From assembly GCA_001017865.1 (NCBI GenBank), contig LATQ01000001.1, positions 1,628,790-1,642,265 of the forward strand: a stretch of DNA of 13,476 bases, given 5' to 3'. Of this stretch, positions 2,401-9,470 are shown piece by piece. The position numbers and the translations under genes were made by a program. Position 1 is the first letter of the stretch. Each line of letters begins with the position of its first letter. The notes under the pieces were generated by a model, which did not search any database, had not been told where the DNA came from, and worked only from the letters and a program-made list of their open reading frames with translations. This DNA is from Rhodococcus sp. IITR03 (GTDB lineage: Bacteria > Actinomycetota > Actinomycetes > Mycobacteriales > Mycobacteriaceae).

Positions 2401-2428
2401 GTAACGGGCCCGTAACCGCAGTTAACCG
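2401..2428. repeat. Three helically phased TAAC repeats in the divergent intergenic region
   Basis: TAAC occurs at 2402, 2413 and 2423, spaced 11 and 10 bases, one DNA turn each. The last two share TAACCG, and ACGGGCCCGT (2404-2413) is a perfect palindrome. Same-face spacing is typical of regulator sites, but the words are short and chance is possible. The region separates the regulator gene (leftward) from the purine operon (rightward). Confidence 0.3.
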
Positions 2429-2441
2429 AACACATGACCTG

Positions 2442-2460
2442 GCGCCGATAACGTCGGCGC
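2442..2460. promoter_or_regulatory. 7-bp inverted repeat between the regulator gene and the purine operon
   Basis: GCGCCGA (2442-2448) and TCGGCGC (2454-2460) flank TAACG. It sits 42 bases before the purine operon start codon and 107 bases before the regulator gene. GATAAC within it could be a -10-like element. It could be an operator or a 5' leader hairpin; the sequence alone does not decide. Confidence 0.35.
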
Positions 2461-2468
2461 ACCACGAC

Positions 2469-2488
2469 GTATACAGCCGTGGATACAG
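2469..2488 (-). promoter_or_regulatory. Candidate purine-catabolism operator, copy 1 (CTGTATCC-N6-GTATAC)
   Basis: On the plus strand it reads GTATAC-AGCCGT-GGATACAG; its complement is CTGTATCC-N6-GTATAC, the same pattern as at 6164-6183 upstream of the permease. The half-sites are near-inverted copies of TGTATAC, a shape used by GntR-type and similar dimeric regulators (inference). It ends 13 bases before the start codon, just before AGGAG, so a bound protein would block transcription or be released by ligand to induce. No regulator of this kind is encoded in the window. Confidence 0.6.
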
Positions 2489-2501
2489 GACAGGAGTTCG
2501 G

Positions 2502-3774
2502 GTGCCGACAGGATTGCACAGGCTTGCGGCTGCGCTCGACGCGCAGCTCGCGGACACCGACGCGGCATACGCCGCGACCTATCCCGGGACCGACGGTGCC
2601 CGCCAACCGGTGCACACCGTCTACGTCCCGGCCGACCGCTACGACGCCGGGATCGCAGCACGGTGGGGAGCCGACGCACTCGACGTCCTCGACACCCACA
2701 TCGACGGTCCCGCGGACCTCGCCGCGGTCACCGGCATCGAACCCGAACTGGCCGACGCCGTCCTCCCGCTCGTGGAGGTCAAACTGCGCACCGAACCGAT
2801 CGAGGATCTGCGCATCGACTTCGAGGACGGTTTCACCCGCCCCGGCATTCCCGAGCACGAACGCGACGCCGACGAGGACGCCCACGTCGCCGTGCCGCCG
2901 TCGCGCTCGCGACCGATCCCACCGCGACACCTTCGTCGGCATCCGGTTCAAGTCCTTCGAGGCCGCCACTCGGCGCCGCGGACTCCGCACGCTCGACGCC
3001 TTCGTCGGAGAACTCACCGGAAGGTGCGCTCTCCCGGACGGATTCGTCGTCACACTGCCCAAGGTCACCGCACCCGAACAGGTCGCCGCCATGGTGACGG
3101 TCTGCGAACATCTCGAGTCGACCTACCCGCTCGTCGCACCCCTGCGGTTCGAGATCCAGATCGAGACGCCGCAGGCGATCTGCGGACCCGACGGCACCGC
3201 GGCCGTCGCCACGATGATCCGAGAGGCCCGGGGGCGCTGTTCGGGGCTGCACTACGGCACCTACGACTACTCGGCCGCGTGCGACATCGCCGCGGAGTAC
3301 CAGGCGATGGACCACCCCGTCGCCGACCACGCCAAGGCCACGATGCAGGTCGCGGCAGCGGGCACGGGGGTGCGGTTGTCCGATGGGTCCACCAATCGCC
3401 TTCCCGTCGGCACCCGCGACGAGATCCGCGCGGCATGGGGACTGCACGCCCGCCTGATCGACCGGTCGCTGCGCCGCGGCTTCTACCAGGGGTGGGACCT
3501 GCACCCGGCGCAGCTGCCCACCCGCTACGCCGCGACCTTCGCGTTCTACCGCCGGTCGCTGTCCACCGCCGCGGGACGCATCGCGGCCTACATCGACCCG
3601 GCCCTGTCGTCGGGATATCTCGACGAACCCGCCACCGCCCGTGCTCTCGCCGCCTTCCTCCTGCGAGGAGCGAGTTGCGGAGCCCTCACCGAGAAGGAAG
3701 TATGCGATCGCACCGGCACGAATCTCGACCACCTGGCCCGACTTGCGGGTCGACCGACGGTGGTGACGCGATGA
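2502..3774 (+). CDS. DUF6986-type aldolase, CitE/malate-synthase-like, in purine operon (two frameshifts)
   Basis: Looks like a TIM-barrel lyase/aldolase of the HpcH/CitE/malate synthase kind. Recognisable elements are LRIDFEDGF, VGIRFKSFE, VVTLPKVTAPEQV, FEIQIETPQAI (probable metal-binding Glu region) and GLHYGTYDYSAACDI. The reading frame changes twice. Restoring one C near 2888 and one C in CCC at 2918-2920 gives DEDAHVRRAAVALATDPHRD and a continuous protein of 424 residues. The GTG start at 2502 is fixed by AGGAG at 2492-2496. It is first in the operon, and its stop overlaps the allantoinase ATG (ATGA). Proteins of this family commonly sit beside allantoinase and allantoicase in actinobacteria, but I know of no assigned reaction. 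Because that pathway yields glyoxylate, a C2-condensing or C2-releasing role is plausible inference only. Confidence 0.75.
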
Positions 3775-5120
3775 CCACCGTGATCCGCGCGCAACGCGCC
3801 GTGGTGGGGGACGAGGAACGCAGCTGCGCCGTCCATGTGCGCGACGGCCGCATCGTCGCGATCGACGAGTACCGGTGCCGCTCCGGCCGGTGCGCGGGAG
3901 ATCGTCCTCGCCGACGACGAGGTGCTGCTCCCCGGCCTGGTGGATACGCACGTCCACGTCAACGAACCCGGCCGCACCGAATGGGAGGGTTTCGCGACGG
4001 CCACGCGTGCCGCCGCGGCCGGGGGAGTGACGACGATCGTCGACATGCCCCTCAACTCCATCCCGTCCACCGTCGACGTAGCGGCCCTCGAGGTGAAGCA
4101 GAAGGTCGCGGCCGAGCAGGTCACCGTCGACGTCGGATTCTGGGGTGGTGCGATCCCCGGCAACCTCGCCGATCTCGAACCGCTCTGGGACGCAGGGGTG
4201 TACGGCTTCAAGTGCTTCCTCGCGTATTCGGGTCTCGACGAGTACCCACCGCTGGACCGCGAGCAGATGATCGAGGCGATGCGCGTGATCGCCGGCTTCG
4301 GCGGTCTGCTCATCGTGCATGCGGAGGACGGACCGACCCTCGACGCGCAGGACCCGCCCGCCGGACCGCGCTACGACGACTTCCTGTACTCGCGACCACC
4401 GGTCGCCGAGTCCCGCGCTGTCGCCCAGGTCATCGACGGCGCGCGGCAGACCGGATGCCGCGTTCACATCCTGCACATGTCGGATGCGGGAAGCCTTCCG
4501 CTCGTGGCCGCGGCGAAGGCCGAGGGTCTGCCCGTCACCGCGGAGACCTGCCCGCACTATCTGTCGCTGTTCAGTGAGGAGATTCTCGACGGCTCCACAC
4601 ATTTCAAGTGCTGCCCGCCGATTCGCGAGGCCCGTAACCGGGAAGCGTTGTGGCGCGGCCTGGCCGACGGCACGCTCGACTGCATCGTCTCCGATCACTC
4701 ACCGTGCCTGCCGGAGCTGAAGAAGTTCGTCACCGGCGACTTCGGCGAGGCGTGGGGCGGTATCTCATCGCTGCAACTCGGACTGCCCATCGTGTGGTCG
4801 GAGGCCCGCAAGCGCGGGCACACACTCGTCGACGTGGTGCGCTGGATGGCCGGTCGCACCGCAGACTCGTGGGGCTGGCCGACCGCGGTGCCATCGCCGT
4901 GGGCAACAGTGCCGACCTGTGCGTCTTCGCACCCGACGACGCGTTCGTGGTCTTCCCGGAGCGGCTGCACCACCGCAACGCCGTGACGCCCTACGCCGAA
5001 CGCGCGCTCGCCGGGGTCGTGCGGCAGACCTGGCTCGCCGGTGAACCGCTCACGGTCACCCTCGGCGCCACCGACCCCGCACCGCGTGGTGCGCTGCTCT
5101 CCCGAAAGGAAAACCGTTGA
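3771..5120 (+). CDS. allB: Allantoinase (two frameshifts)
   Basis: Cytosolic metal-dependent amidohydrolase that opens the allantoin ring to allantoate (EC 3.5.2.5). Metal-site motifs of cyclic amidohydrolases are present in order: [17 protein letters not shown] (about residue 58), [10 protein letters not shown] with the probable carboxylated Lys (about 147), LLIVHAED (about 183), HILHMSDAG (about 235) and IVSDHSPC (about 308). The N-terminus is in one frame to about 3873, the core in the next, and the last 80 residues in the first again. Removing one C at 3872-3873 (or adding two bases there) and restoring one C near 4866 gives 449 residues, a normal length. The second repair yields [20 protein letters not shown], the usual C-terminal strand of this superfamily. 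Start and stop overlap the neighbouring genes, so the three genes form one transcript. Dihydropyrimidinase or hydantoinase is the main alternative, but the allantoicase partner makes allantoinase much more likely. Confidence 0.92.
5104..5110 (+). promoter_or_regulatory. Ribosome binding site fixing the TTG start of allantoicase
   Basis: GAAAGGA lies 6 bases before TTG at 5117, and that TTG overlaps the allantoinase stop in TTGA. No ATG or GTG lies nearby in this frame, so the TTG start is well supported. Confidence 0.7.
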
Positions 5121-6085
5121 CCGAAGCAGATTTCCTGCAACTGCCCGATCTCGTCGCGCGATCGCTGGGCGGGGCCGTCGTCTATGCGAACGACGAGTTC
5201 TTCGCGAGTCGCGAGAACCTGATCTCGCCGGGCGCACCCGATTTCGATCCGTCCGAGTTCGGGCACAAGGGAAAGGTCTACGACGGGTGGGAGACCCGGC
5301 GTCGCCGCGAACCAGGGCACGACTTCGCGGTGGTCCGGCTCGGCGTGCCCGGTGTCGTCGAGGGCGTGGTGATCGACACCGCCTGGTTCACGGGCAACTA
5401 CCCGCCCTACGCGTCCGTCGACGGGGTGAACCTCGACGGCTACCCGACCGATCAGGAGTTGCTGGACGCGCCGTGGGAACCGGTCCTCGAGCGCGTGGCC
5501 CTGAAGGGCGATACCGCGAACGCCTTCGCGGTGGACGACGACCGGCGCTGGACGCATCTGCGCCTGAACATCTTTCCCGACGGCGGTGTGGCCCGATTCC
5601 GCGTGCACGGACATGCCCGCCCGGACCCGGCCTTCCTCACGGGCACGATCGATCTCGCGGCCCTCGAGAACGGTGGCGACGTCGTCGCGTGCTCGAACCG
5701 TTTCTATTCGTCGCCGCGCAACATCATCGGCCTCGGTCGCTCGCGGCACATGGGGGAGGGCTGGGAGAACGCCCGCCGCCGCGACGACGGCAACGACTAC
5801 GTGGTGATCCGCCTCGCCGGGCAGGGCTGCGTCGACCACGTGGAGATCGACACCTCCTATTTCGTCGGCAACGCACCGGGAGCGGTACGCCTGAGCGGAA
5901 TTCCGAGCGAGGACGCGATGTCCGACGAATCGTCCTGGGTCGAACTCGTGCCGCGGACCGCACTGCTGCCGGACTGCCGGCATCGTTTCCGCGTCGATTC
6001 GCCGACGCCGGTGGAGTTCGTGCGGCTCGACGTCTATCCCGACGGCGGCATCGCCCGCCTGCGCGTGAACGGACGGCTGACCTAG
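5117..6085 (+). CDS. alc: Allantoicase
   Basis: Hydrolyses allantoate to (S)-ureidoglycolate and urea (EC 3.5.3.4) in the cytosol. The intact 322-residue protein shows the family's two tandem beta-barrel repeats. The first has YDGWETRRRREPGHDFAVVR, EGVVIDTAWFTGNYPP and NIFPDGGVARFRVHG. The second has GWENARRRDDGNDYVVIR, DHVEIDTSYFVGN and DVYPDGGIARLRVNG. Each repeat therefore has the same W-E-x-x-R-R-R, I-D-T and P-D-G-G series. The TTG start is supported by a ribosome binding site and by overlap with allantoinase. It is the last gene of the first purine operon; a weak hairpin follows. This is one of three genes in the window free of frame breaks. Confidence 0.95.
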   Translation: MTEADFLQLPDLVARSLGGAVVYANDEFFASRENLISPGAPDFDPSEFGHKGKVYDGWETRRRREPGHDFAVVRLGVPGVVEGVVIDTAWFTGNYPPYASVDGVNLDGYPTDQELLDAPWEPVLERVALKGDTANAFAVDDDRRWTHLRLNIFPDGGVARFRVHGHARPDPAFLTGTIDLAALENGGDVVACSNRFYSSPRNIIGLGRSRHMGEGWENARRRDDGNDYVVIRLAGQGCVDHVEIDTSYFVGNAPGAVRLSGIPSEDAMSDESSWVELVPRTALLPDCRHRFRVDSPTPVEFVRLDVYPDGGIARLRVNGRLT

Positions 6086-6091
6086 TTCTGA

Positions 6092-6122
6092 TGCGGGTGC
6101 GGTGAGCGGTTTCTTACCCGCA
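6092..6122 (+). terminator. Weak hairpin after allantoicase
   Basis: TGCGGGT (6092-6098) pairs with ACCCGCA (6116-6122) around a 17-base loop that contains TTTCTT. There is no T run after the stem and the loop is long, so termination is uncertain. The position, 6 bases after the allantoicase stop, suits a terminator or attenuator. Confidence 0.25.
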
Positions 6123-6163
6123 CGAAACACGATGACTCGAGCCCGAAAACTTCGGCCCCCAAG

Positions 6164-6185
6164 CTGTATCCGGCACCGTATACAG
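6164..6185 (+). promoter_or_regulatory. Candidate purine-catabolism operator, copy 2 (CTGTATCC-N6-GTATAC)
   Basis: Near-perfect palindrome: CTGTATCCGG and CCGTATACAG around CA, with one mismatched pair in the 10-bp arms. It shares all fourteen fixed bases of CTGTATCC-N6-GTATAC with the site at 2469-2488, in the opposite orientation. It ends 27 bases before the permease ATG. Just upstream, CCGAA-AAC-TTCGG (6143-6155) forms another small inverted repeat. Confidence 0.65.
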
Positions 6186-6212
6186 CACTGCATCCGAAAT
6201 GGGAGCGATCAC

Positions 6213-7603
6213 ATGACCTCACCGCACCCCGTCGACGCGCGACTGCCGTTCCTCCGGCAGCTCGCGTTCGGCCTCCAGCATGTCCTCATCATGTACACCG
6301 GATGCATCACCGTCCCGTTGGTCTTCGGCGCGGCCGTCGGACTCGACCGCGACACCATCGCGATGCTCATCAGCGCCGACCTGCTGATCGCCGGCCTGAT
6401 CACCATCGTCCAGAGCCTCGGTGTCGGCAAACTCGTCGGCGTCCGCCTGCCCATCGTCTGCGGTGCGACCTTCGCCGGCCTGACGCCGATGATCCTCATC
6501 GCGAAGGAATACGGCCTGCAGGCCGTCTACGGCTCCATGCTGATCGGCGGCATCGTCGGTCTCGCCCTGGCCTGGCCGTTCGCCAGGATCATCCGGTTCT
6601 TCCCGCCGCTCGTCACCGGTGCCGTCCTCACCGTCGTCGGTATCTCGCTCATCGGCGTGCAGGTGCTGATCGTCGGCACCGACCCGTCGTCTCCCACCTT
6701 CGCCTCGCCCACCAACATCGCCCTGGCCGTGCTGGTGATCGTCGTCGCCGTCGGCTTCCTGTGCCTCGGTCGCGGCATCTGGGCGCAGCTCGGGGTGTTG
6801 ATCGCCCTCGCGGTCGGCACGGTCGTCGCGGTCCCGCTCGGCTTGATCGACCTCGGTGGCGTGGCCGGTTCGTCGTGGGTGGGTCTGCCCGCCCCCTTCC
6901 ACTTCGGCGCACCCGAATTCCCGATCACCGCGGTCGTCGCCATGAGCATCGTCATGGCCGTGGTCTTCGCCGAATCCACCGCGAGCATGCTCGCCGTCGC
7001 CGAGATCACCGGCAAGCGCGTCAGCAAGGGTGACATCGCCCGCGGACTCGCCGGCGACGGAGCGTCCGCTGTGCTCGCCGGTGTCTTCAACGCCTTCGTC
7101 GACACCGTCTTCACCCAGAACGTCGGTGCGGTCGCCACCACCGCGTGTACAGCCGCTACGTCACCGCCACGTCGGGTGTGATCCTCGTGGTCCTCGGCGC
7201 GCTGCCGAAGGTGAGCTCGGTGGTCGCGGCGCTGCCGAAGCCGGTCGTCGGCGGTGTCGGCCTGATCCTGTTCGCCACCGTCGCCCTCGTGGGCATCAAC
7301 ACACTGCGTTCGGTGGACCTGTCCGACCGCATCAACTCCACGATCGCCGCCGTCGCGGTGGGTGTGGGTCTGCTGCCGGAACTCGCCGAGGGCATGTTCG
7401 AGCGCTTCCCGTCCGCCGCGCAGATCCTGCTCGGCAGCGGCATCACGCTCGCCGCAATCGCGGCGTTCTCGTTGAACCTGCTGTTCAACCACACTCGTCT
7501 CGGGACACTGGCTCGCGCGTCCCGGTCCGGCACGCCGGCCCCCGTCACCTCGGCCGGTACCACCTCTCCCCACGGAGTTGCCCATGAACCAGTCGCCGTC
7601 TGA
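6213..7603 (+). CDS. NCS2-family uracil/xanthine (urate) permease; one frameshift
   Basis: Cytoplasmic-membrane, proton-coupled nucleobase importer. Hydrophobic helices run from residue 15 to near the C-terminus. Family marks are GLQHVLIMYTGCITVPLVFG in helix 1, VRLPIVCGATFAGLTPM in helix 3, VFAESTASMLAVAEITGK in helix 8 with its substrate-site Glu, and FTQNVGAVATT before the helix-10 region. The frame breaks after that motif. Restoring one C in CC at 7141-7142 gives VATTRVYSRYVTATSG and continuous helices 11-14, 463 residues in all, as expected for NCS2. The ATG at 6213 follows GGGAG by 7 bases; an in-frame GTG at 6102 would add an unrelated basic stretch and read through the operator, so it was rejected. 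It is first in its operon, and its last 20 bases overlap the dioxygenase gene. Xanthine or urate is favoured over uracil from context. Confidence 0.9.
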
Positions 7604-8667
7604 CGCCTTCGTCGTTCCCGCCGTCGACATCGGCCCGTACGTCCGGGCCGGCGGTGACATCGGCCCGTACGTCCGGGCCGGCGAGGATGCCGAACGCGCC
7701 CGTGTCGCCCGTGAGATCGACGAAGCCTGCAGCCGTGTGGGATTCGTCCAGATCCTCGGGCACGGCATACCCGATCCGGTGGTCGACGGCCTCACCGGCG
7801 CCTCGACGACTTCTTCGGTCTGCCGATGGACGACAAGCAGCAGTACCGGGTGGTCGGCGCGAACCGCGGATACAGCCCGCCCAAGAGCGAGTCGCTGAGC
7901 CTGAGCCTCGGCGTCGAATCCGCCAGCCGCATGAACGATTTCTTCGAGGCATACAACGTCGGCGTGGAGGCCCGGTCGTTCCCCCACCTGGACCTGTCGG
8001 AGGACGACTACGGACTCAACGTCTGGCCCGACGTCCCCGGTTTCGAGGACCGCGTGCAGACCTATTTCATCGAGGCCTCGCGGGTCGCGCGGACCCTCAC
8101 CCGGATCTTCGCCGACGCGCTCGGGCAGGCTCCCGACTACTTCGAACAGCTCACCGACCACTCGATCGACGTGTTGCGCATGAACAACTACGCGCTGCCC
8201 GAGGGCACCGTCGACCTCGACGGCGACCTCACCGGCATGGGTGAGCACACCGACTTCGGGATCGTCACCGTGCTGTGGGCCGACCGGGTCGCAGGGCTGC
8301 AAGTGCTCGGGTCCGACGGAATCTGGCACGACGTCGAACCGCTGCCTGGGGCTCTGCTCGTCAATCTCGGTGATCTCACCGCCCGCATCACCGACGACCG
8401 GTGGATGTCGACGCTGCACCGCGTCAAGCCACCGATCGTCGACGGTCGTATCCGACGCCGTCGTTCGGTGGCGTTCTTCCACGACGCAACGTCGACGCGG
8501 TGGTCTCCACCCTGCCCGAATATGCGGGCCCGGAGCCCTACGAACCCATCCTGATCCGCGATCACATCAAGGCCAAGCTCGCCGGGTCGCGGCACGGCAA
8601 GGCCAACACCGCTGCTGTGCGCGAAGCCGCCCGTGTGCTGGCGGCGACGGGGGAGAACCGCGCGTGA
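7584..8667 (+). CDS. Isopenicillin N synthase-like Fe(II)/2-oxoglutarate dioxygenase (two frameshifts)
   Basis: Likely oxidises a small molecule using Fe(II), O2 and 2-oxoglutarate. After repair (one C near 7799, one G near 8486) it is 361 residues. N-terminal marks are REIDEACSRVGFVQILGHGI and LDDFFGLPMDDKQQY, the usual IPNS-family N-domain. The double-stranded beta-helix carries LRMNNYALPEG, iron ligands His222 and Asp224 (GEHTDFGIVTV), distal His279 (LHRVKPP), and the R-x-S co-substrate motif in RRRSVAFFHDGN. ATG at 7584 follows GGAG by 6 bases and lies within the end of the permease gene, so the two are co-expressed. The alpha/beta hydrolase start overlaps its stop (GTGA). The substrate is unknown; the permease suggests a purine or pyrimidine. 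Thymine 7-hydroxylase of fungi belongs to the same broad family, so a nucleobase oxidation is a reasonable guess. A 10-residue tandem duplication is present near the N-terminus. Confidence 0.85.
7626..7682 (+). repeat. Tandem 30-bp in-frame duplication in the dioxygenase gene
   Basis: Bases 7626-7652 are repeated exactly at 7656-7682 (27 identical bases, period 30). They encode DIGPYVRAGG followed by DIGPYVRAGE. Identical codons imply a very recent duplication or an assembly artefact; the extra segment lies at the start of the fold, away from the active-site residues. Confidence 0.9.
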
Positions 8668-9400
8668 GTCATGTCGTGCTCGTGCACGGCGCGTGGGCCG
8701 GAAGCTGGGTGTGGGACACGCTGCTCGAACCGTTCCGCCGGTCCGGGCACGTCCCACACCCGCTCGCGCTTCCCGGTGTCGGATCATGGGGCGCCGACGA
8801 CGTGACGCTCGACGACGTCGCCGCGGTCGTGGCCGACCACGTTGCCGGACTGGATGGCCCTGTGATCCTCGTCGGTCATTCCGGTGGTGGCATCGTCGTC
8901 ACGCAGGTCGCGGAGATGCTGCCGGAACGTGTCGCCGGGGTCGCCTACATGGCGGGGATGATGCTCCCGTCCGGGGTCGACTTCGGGATGCTCTGTGACG
9001 GAATCGGTCTCGAAGCGCCGGTGGGTATCTCGCGGTGGCTCGAACCCACCGACGACGGTCGCGGCACGATCGTGCCCCCGGAGGCCGGCGCCGCGGTGTT
9101 CTTCCACGAGACGGATGCGGCCGACGCGATCGGTGCCGCACGCCGACTCGTGCCGCAACTCGAAACCGCCCGGCTCATGGCACCCAGCTGGACGCCGGAA
9201 CGGTTCGGGCGCTGCCGCGCCTGTACATCGAAGCGACACTGGACCGTTCGGTTCCCCTCGTCACCCAGCGGGCGATGCAACGCCTCACCCCGGGTGCGCA
9301 AGTCGTGTCGCTCGAGTCCGACCATGCACCACAGCTGTCCGCCCGCGACGACCTCGCGGCGGCACTGGTGGAGTGGTGCACCGAGCGCGTCCGGACATAG
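8664..9400 (+). CDS. Alpha/beta-fold hydrolase (one frameshift)
   Basis: Serine hydrolase of the esterase/hydroxynitrile-lyase-like branch. It starts VSHVVLVHGAWAGSWVWD, with the oxyanion-hole HGAW. The nucleophile elbow GHSGGG places Ser73, the acid is probably Asp194 (EATLDRSVPL), and the base is His221 (ESDHAPQLS), giving the expected S-D-H order. The frame breaks near 9188. Restoring one C gives APSLDAGTVRALPRLYIEAT and a 245-residue protein, normal for the group. The GTG start overlaps the dioxygenase stop in GTGA, so the two proteins are made together and may act in sequence, the hydrolase cleaving an ester, lactone or amide formed upstream (inference). The exact substrate is not recognisable. 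It is the last gene of the operon and ends just before the strong terminator-like hairpin. Confidence 0.85.
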
Positions 9401-9416
9401 GCCGGATCTACGGAAC

Positions 9417-9470
9417 GAGACCGACGTTGTGTGCGATTTCCAGCCGGAAATCGCACACAACACCGGTCTC
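9417..9470. terminator. Long bidirectional terminator-like hairpin between convergent operons
   Basis: A perfect 16-bp stem (9426-9441 with 9446-9461) closes an AGCC loop. It is extended, after a 2-base internal mismatch, by 7 more pairs: GAGACCG (9417-9423) with CGGTCTC (9464-9470). The symmetry and the position, 16 bases after the rightward hydrolase stop and 12 bases before the end of the leftward molybdenum-hydroxylase gene, fit a shared terminator. There is no long T run on either strand, which is common in high-GC actinobacteria. Confidence 0.85.

Follow-up and report, generated by a model that had tools for sequence, protein, structure and literature searches.

We analysed a stretch of 13,476 nucleotides from Rhodococcus sp. 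IITR03 (contig LATQ01000001.1, positions 1,628,790 to 1,642,265 of the forward strand), which we call the window. The window carries two operons for purine use. One encodes a DUF6986 protein, an allantoinase-like amidohydrolase and an allantoicase, and the other starts with a xanthine/uracil-type permease. In front of each operon lies an array of short GTATAC-type boxes, and we propose that these arrays are read by a GntR-family regulator encoded in the urea transporter operon (urt). The first-pass annotation described the two arrays as copies of a 20-bp motif, CTGTATCC-N6-GTATAC, at 2469-2488 on the minus strand (site 1) and at 6164-6183 on the plus strand (site 2). Both copies are there, and they are the only exact matches in the window. 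If up to three mismatches are allowed, the 20-bp motif has three matches in the window, the third of which is the opposite strand of site 2. Shuffled sequences contain 0.13 matches on average and reach three matches in only one of 200 shuffles.

The two copies lie on opposite strands, as the annotation had it. However, their orientation means little, because the unit GTATAC is its own complement. This self-complementary hexamer and its variants (GTATCC, GGATAC and GCATCC) form the repeat unit of both arrays, with a period of 12 bp. Site 1 consists of two boxes, GTATAC(2469)-N6-GGATAC(2481), covering 2469-2486. Site 2 consists of three, GTATCC(6166)-N6-GTATAC(6178)-N6-GCATCC(6190), covering 6166-6195.

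2469..2474, no strand: site 1, box 1, GTATAC (sequence and promoter alignment)
2481..2486, no strand: site 1, box 2, GGATAC, 12 bp past box 1 (sequence and alignment)
6166..6171, no strand: site 2, box 1, GTATCC (sequence and alignment)
6178..6183, no strand: site 2, box 2, GTATAC (sequence; two-box array in 11 of 14 genomes)
6190..6195, no strand: site 2, box 3, GCATCC, overlooked in the first-pass annotation (sequence and alignment)

The last box ends 15 bp before the start codon at site 1 (GTG 2502) and 17 bp before it at site 2 (ATG 6213); both start codons were picked from promoter alignments. The arrays occupy equivalent positions relative to the first gene of their operon.

Genome-wide scans were run on G001, the genome nearest to the window (93% of sampled 31-mers in common, 99.4% identity over an alignment of 13.4 kb). 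The window is Rhodococcus: among the 80 top-ranking of the 170 relatives of its allantoicase, the best one with a name comes from R. gordoniae (97%). Compared to G001, 20 bases are missing from the window, at 18 places and mostly one at a time, and 5 bases are added. These differences, which break several of the reading frames, probably reflect a problem of assembly quality. The operator regions are free of them. Gene identities were taken from Pfam and NCBIfam matches on the intact G001 copies.

The exact pattern GTATAC-N6-GKATMC occurs at three places only in G001: site 1, site 2 and the promoter of urtABCDE. The hits sit before the two purine operons and urtA and are not scattered, which leaves the motif standing. 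The third place precedes the likely ATG of urtA by 56 bp and the matched part of this gene by 132 bp, and is 2.7 Mb away from the purine cluster. For up to one mismatch we find 19 matches, which reduce to 15 places because four are matched on both strands, compared to 4 matches for the reversed pattern, which served as control. Two other descriptions of the motif were rejected. A single 22-bp palindrome, CTGTATMC-N6-GKATACAG, is complete only at site 2 and, with up to three mismatches, yields 18 matches per strand in G001 versus 6 in the control. The form GTATACAG-N5-GATACAG yields 24 matches versus 25 and no further usable place. An 18-bp form, GKATACAG-N2-CTGTATMC, revealed the urtA site, after which the 12-bp period accounted for all sites.

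The urt locus (L138) contains, in this order, urtA, urtB, urtC, urtD, urtE, a gene for a GntR/FCD regulator (gntR), a carboxymuconolactone-decarboxylase-like gene and a urea carboxylase gene. The five urt genes each score above the NCBIfam cut-off; the urea carboxylase gene, truncated by the end of the locus, scores below it. The next gene (L308:2060-3814) has amidase and allophanate hydrolase C-terminal domains. A fourth array lies at the start of the urea carboxylase gene in G001, where GTATAC boxes 24 bp apart flank a degenerate middle box. Some enzymes called urea carboxylases use other substrates. Here urea is the likely substrate, because urtABCDE and an allophanate hydrolase gene accompany the enzyme. 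The carboxymuconolactone-decarboxylase-family gene (L138:15751-16317) lies between gntR and the urea carboxylase gene, and relatives of it also accompany a gntR elsewhere, within the genus in L295 and in other genera in L294, L299 and L305.

The regulon of ring opening and nucleobase uptake that had been suggested is borne out, but it left out the urea transporter operon, its strongest and most conserved target. An array before the urate oxidase operon or the 8-oxoguanine deaminase gene, where further hits would have supported the suggestion, is absent from the G001 cluster (L017). A PucR-family gene (L017:14303-15967) sits in this cluster between the 8-oxoguanine deaminase gene and the genes for uricase, HIUase and OHCU decarboxylase, about 8 kb from site 2. 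With its PucR and HTH_30 domains it could encode the protein that binds both sites. Yet neither pucR itself nor the uricase and deaminase genes have a GTATAC array nearby in L017, whereas the array is present at urtA in every genome of the genus, 2.7 Mb from the purine cluster in G001, and tracks gntR in other genera. We consider a role for PucR at the two sites highly unlikely. With no array at the PucR and uricase genes, it seems that something else controls the purine pathway in its upper half.

The proposed regulator gene (L138:15048-15734 in G001) lies outside the window as the sixth gene of the urtABCDE operon, which fits the earlier guess of a GntR-type regulator. Its product has an N-terminal GntR winged helix-turn-helix (HTH; PF00392, E 1.8e-20) and a C-terminal, all-helical FCD/FadR domain (PF07729, E 1.5e-18). 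For the regulator as a whole, no NCBIfam model reaches its cut-off. Residues D131, H135, H179 and H201 are invariant in 20 of 20 aligned proteins, and residues of this type are, as we take it, the metal site of FCD proteins. The effectors of FCD proteins are often carboxylates. The operator consensus of the FadR subfamily is NyGTM-N0-1-KACNy, and several of its members leave a gap of 2 nt between GT and AC (accessible part of PMC4494728). The GTA-TAC core at both sites and at urtA fits this consensus.

Conservation was assessed across the genus, in 18 genomes that together make up about 99 Mb. The regulator gene is present in 18 of 18 as a GntR/FCD gene within the urt operon, 3.5 kb downstream of urtA on the same contig and strand. 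The exact two-box pattern has 39 hits in these genomes and its reversal has 1, while base composition alone predicts about 10. All 39 hits were mapped: 21 lie before urtA (in all 18 genomes), 9 before the permease gene and 8 before the DUF6986 gene. The remaining hit, in a genome that is 75% complete, is unexplained. Aligned promoters show the urtA array in every genome. The DUF6986 gene is present in 15 of the 18 genomes and the permease gene in 14. The arrays are kept at 12 of these 15 DUF6986 operons (9 found by the pattern, plus G006, G010 and G011, whose second box differs by one more base) and at 11 of the 14 permease operons. The permease boxes persist even where the permease and DUF6986 genes are on separate contigs (G003, G013) or at a distance of about 23 kb from each other (G004, G007, G014). 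Thus within the genus orthologous operons largely retain the motif, but it is missing from one clade of three genomes (G005, G015, G018; support 100 in a tree of UrtA and GntR). Beyond the genus the motif is not retained at allantoin genes: all 71 further allantoicase loci (L028-L098; 56-67% identical and taken as outside the genus) lack a similar two-box pattern on the plus strand of the 1.32 Mb covered.

A GTATAC box is also found 0.6-0.7 kb downstream of gntR in 15 of the 18 genomes, the others being G005, G015 and G018. In G002, G003, G008 and G013 the gene next after this box is a second gntR copy and not urea carboxylase. This paralogue is 46-48% identical to the G001 protein and adjoins the urt-linked gntR (G002:C151, G003:C11, G008:C19, G013:C1).

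In the clade without purine boxes an IclR-family gene lies directly upstream of the DUF6986 gene (L025, L026), and the boxes of both purine operons were lost or were never present. A regulator of this family, similar to AllR, might thus act through the GTATAC motif. In E. coli, AllR is the IclR regulator of allantoin use (PMC8222616, in the part available), and the IclR gene precedes DUF6986 in R. phenolicus and Rhodococcus sp. HM1. However, an IclR homologue is found within 1.5 kb of DUF6986 in only 3 of 15 loci, the search being confined to these flanks. G001 is not among these three genomes, which are G005, G015 and G018, exactly the ones whose purine operons both lack the boxes. Moreover, the motif that PMC8222616 gives for AllR does not resemble GTATAC. 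We regard this explanation as very improbable. Instead, the pattern suggests an exchange of regulators in one clade, GntR boxes in most lineages and an IclR gene in this one. It can only suggest it, because the IclR-bearing, box-free genomes represent one evolutionary event.

The association of arrays and gntR extends to other genera. In a set of 251 genomes of the family, a gntR homologue (E<=1e-50) is present in 93 and an exact pattern hit in 78. Among the 87 hits listed from outside the genus, 64 fall in genomes that have a gntR homologue. In 27 cases the homologue is no more than 8 kb away, where about 0.2 such cases are expected; 26 of the 27 hits lie upstream of gntR and 1 downstream. 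A less circular test starts from the regulator. We hand-picked 12 regions of other genera by their gntR homologue, none with an exact hit beside gntR, and added L294, a region of this same type. In 13 of 13 regions urtA lies upstream of gntR and an array precedes urtA. The array has the form G.ATAC-N6-GTATAC in 12 regions and a spacing of N7 in one.

Individual genomes show the same association. G090 carries urtA and gntR on separate contigs; even so, each of the two genes has an exact two-box site, directly at urtA and 1.8 kb upstream in the case of gntR. G056, a relative of G090, has an allophanate hydrolase gene near gntR with boxes on either side, and in G068 gntR and an allophanate hydrolase gene diverge from an intergenic region that contains the array. 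Four other-genus loci (L290, L292, L293, L294) were scanned for genes of allophanate hydrolase or urea carboxylase, and all four have such genes near gntR. By eye, the gntR homologue of G068 also adjoins genes resembling glnD, glnK and amtB (L292:3731-10330).

A weight matrix trained on 11 of the gntR-chosen regions, with no sequence from the window or the genus, leads back to the window. Its six best window scores all fall on the two sites (16.4, 16.0, 15.0, 11.7, 11.5 and 10.3). The next scores are 7.1, overlapping site 1, and 4.4 at an unrelated place. The urtA site in L138 scores 27.6, and the peaks in four other G001 stretches are 13.7, 11.1, 8.4 and 8.2.

Taken at the level of sequence comparison, the array, its targets, their conservation and their association with gntR are established. 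The word shared by the two purine operons is real and conserved, and the original idea of a regulon is right in kind but has to be widened to a purine-urea regulon. That the sites are operators of the urt-encoded GntR protein is our main reading, to which we assign a probability of roughly 0.8.

Several observations weigh against it. Of the 87 listed hits outside the genus, 60 have no gntR homologue within 8 kb, and most of these are unexplained; one of them (L289) is a site at urtA, on a contig other than that of gntR. In the nine genomes of g22 and g24 that we looked at, the first urtA box reads GAATAC and so escapes the exact pattern. The matrix peak of 13.7 is an intragenic near-match (L139, a stretch chosen for it), which comes near the 16.0-16.4 of the window. 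In L138 the urea carboxylase site scores 12.5, the same as an intragenic place (12.5), so the matrix alone is insufficient to establish this fourth site. A relaxed pattern with one GNNTMC box is noisy, with 28 hits in seven genomes compared to 19 for its reversal. Only 19 of the 28 are at the three main targets, and specificity is quickly lost. G005, G015 and G018 lack boxes at their purine operons in spite of having gntR and the array at urtA. The strict GlnR consensus discussed below is found at 9 of 15 DUF6986 genes (within 260 bp), at 0 of 14 permease genes and at 3 of 18 urtA genes (placement unchecked). We chose a repressor over an activator solely from the position of the boxes and the habit of the family. 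GntR binding, repression, the effector and the role of GlnR are all things we infer from sequence. The target list rests on one pattern, and degenerate sites may be missed.

How could the arrays work? The promoters of the window contain four further elements.

2401..2416, plus strand: GlnR-like box GTAAC-N6-GTAAC, upstream of site 1; fits Gn2AC-n6-GnAAC (PMC3662644, partial text)
2449..2454, plus strand: possible -10 element TAACGT, from the promoter alignment
6113..6129, plus strand: GlnR-like box CTTAC-N6-GAAACA, upstream of site 2; its first base is not the consensus G
6146..6151, plus strand: possible -10 element AAAACT, from the promoter alignment

The form nTTAC-N6-GAAACA is present in 14 of 14 aligned permease promoters, and near matches to the GlnR consensus occur in other promoters (both by eye). 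At the three main targets the boxes lie, again by eye in the alignments, between the possible -10 element and the ribosome-binding site, with the GlnR-like box farther upstream. In M. smegmatis, GlnR is reported to bind at purine/uracil permease genes and upstream of MSMEG2982, a putative periplasmic binding protein gene among the urea uptake genes MSMEG2978-2982 (PMC3662644, as far as the accessible text goes). Because of the positions of the boxes and the binding of GlnR at MSMEG2982, we propose general activation by GlnR combined with specific repression by GntR.

In the proposed mechanism, dimers of the GntR protein (FadR subfamily, FCD) would sit on GTATAC-type boxes 12 bp apart, just downstream of the promoter. 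The 12-bp period suggests that the dimers lie side by side. They would block initiation or early elongation until a small carboxylate of the pathway releases them, and GlnR, bound further upstream, would activate transcription under nitrogen limitation. The regulon would comprise urtABCDE-gntR, urea carboxylase-allophanate hydrolase, DUF6986-allantoinase-allantoicase and the purine permease operon. We think it likely that the protein is a repressor. It could also be an activator, or its sites could work otherwise than by repression. But a protein bound between the -10 element and the ribosome-binding site normally blocks, and this alternative appears rather unlikely. As effector, allophanate is our first guess, because urea carboxylase and allophanate hydrolase genes recur beside gntR homologues, followed by allantoate or ureidoglycolate. 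Even as first guess, allophanate is a speculative choice and may well be the wrong one.

The TetR-type nitrogen regulator AmtR would be another candidate for these sites, since several actinobacteria, R. jostii among them, show a link between AmtR and urea carboxylase genes (PMC4222082, in its accessible part). However, the AmtR motifs given in the available text of PMC8864220 (CTAT-N6-ATAG and TATCTGTCa-n2-cGACAGATAT) differ from the array, and neither CTAT-N6-ATAG nor CTGTC-N4-GACAG has a match in four promoter stretches tested (AmtR itself was not searched for). We give AmtR very little credence.

Behind the two sites the window contains the following genes.

2502..3774, plus strand: DUF6986 gene, first behind site 1, frame broken (PF22484 and fold search)
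3771..5120, plus strand: allantoinase-like amidohydrolase, frame broken (PF01979; "allantoinase" from operon context)
5117..6085, plus strand: allantoicase (PF03561, E 6e-92 for the G001 copy)
6213..7603, plus strand: xanthine/uracil-type permease, first behind site 2, frame broken (PF00860, E 5e-81)
7584..8667, plus strand: 2-oxoglutarate/Fe(II)-type dioxygenase, permease operon, frame broken (PF14226/PF03171)
8664..9400, plus strand: alpha/beta hydrolase, permease operon, frame broken (PF12697)

The predicted model of the DUF6986 protein (mean pLDDT 90) has its top fold matches among malyl-CoA lyases and citrate-lyase-like proteins, with a TM-score of 0.53 by query length at rank 1. Malate synthase A follows at rank 37 with a poor superposition (rmsd 20). 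A sequence search of the PDB with DUF6986 gave no match. Going by the model, a role in handling glyoxylate, like that of yeast DAL7, is possible.

The dioxygenase and the alpha/beta hydrolase (7584-9400) accompany the permease also in L020, L025, L026 and L027, and the dioxygenase matches no NCBIfam family. Near its start, at about 7626-7685, we see by eye an in-frame direct duplication of 30 bp (DIGPYVRAGG/E), which is also present in G001 and is single copy in L020 and L027. A long inverted repeat at about 9425-9470, likewise seen by eye between two convergent operons, is probably a terminator.

Upstream of site 1, at about 700-2336, lie a tandem pair of ClpP protease genes and a gene for a small XRE-type regulator; the set is missing from the corresponding place in L022-L026. 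The XRE gene (HTH_3) is divergent from DUF6986 and starts about 130 bp from site 1, so its product could bind there. But it stands beside two ClpP genes, it does not appear in the gene maps of L022, L023 and L024 although the site persists, and site 2 and urtA are far away from it. The chance that the XRE protein is the one that binds site 1 is close to negligible.

The proposed binding by the GntR protein has parallels in known systems. NanR, which acts in the sialic acid pathway, differs in pathway and in box sequence. Like the regulator proposed here, it is a FadR-subfamily protein on repeated short boxes, its repeats being direct copies of TGGTATAW (accessible part of PMC4494728). The same part of this source describes FadR-subfamily GntR proteins that share the GntR HTH and FCD domain and a GT-AT-AC core with 2-nt spacing. 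In contrast to those systems, the arrays here have two or three boxes with a 12-bp period, and the targets are urea and purine/allantoin genes. We seem to be dealing with a GntR/FCD regulon that has an unusual operator array and a lineage-specific set of targets.

The mycobacterial GlnR regulon is similar in that GlnR-like boxes lie upstream of the sites here and GlnR is reported to bind at urea uptake and permease genes (PMC3662644, same partial text), but the GTATAC array is separate from the GlnR-like box and downstream of it. AllR and its IclR relatives also control allantoin genes, and an IclR gene stands beside the box-free allantoin operon of the R. phenolicus clade. Family and motif are different, however, and the operon has no IclR neighbour in G001 or at any other locus with boxes. 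The likeness to the yeast DAL/DUR system is one of logic. In yeast, allophanate induces the allantoin and urea genes jointly (PMC4589623, PMC9772842, each in part). Going by the same partial texts, the breakdown of allantoin, the recycling of glyoxylate (DAL7, whose counterpart here may be DUF6986), urea amidolyase and the transport of urea all answer to one specific signal, and general nitrogen control stands above it. The yeast proteins, Dal81 and Dal82, are unrelated to GntR, and the effector here is only a candidate.

Our search of the open literature, by titles and the starts of abstracts, found no paper naming this regulator or motif; most subscription papers were outside the search.

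Taken together, a GntR/FCD repressor that senses allophanate or a similar ureido-carboxylate may be the pathway-specific switch of the entire route by which this Rhodococcus lineage obtains ammonia from allantoin and imported purines. An old urea regulon (urt, urea carboxylase, allophanate hydrolase) would then have taken in the allantoin and purine-permease operons, with an IclR protein in this role in one sister clade, and would be an independently evolved counterpart of DAL/DUR. This complete picture is tentative, and we hold it to be somewhat less probable than its negation. On the main reading, a GntR regulator without a name gains a motif, a list of targets and a likely pathway, and the use of urea is joined to the pathway that yields this urea, in the form of a testable regulon. 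The 18 relatives also offer a clean case of regulon change: most lineages have GntR boxes at the same two operons where one clade is box-free and has a neighbouring IclR gene. For Rhodococcus and related genera, the motif would also aid the annotation of the urt, urea carboxylase and allantoin genes.

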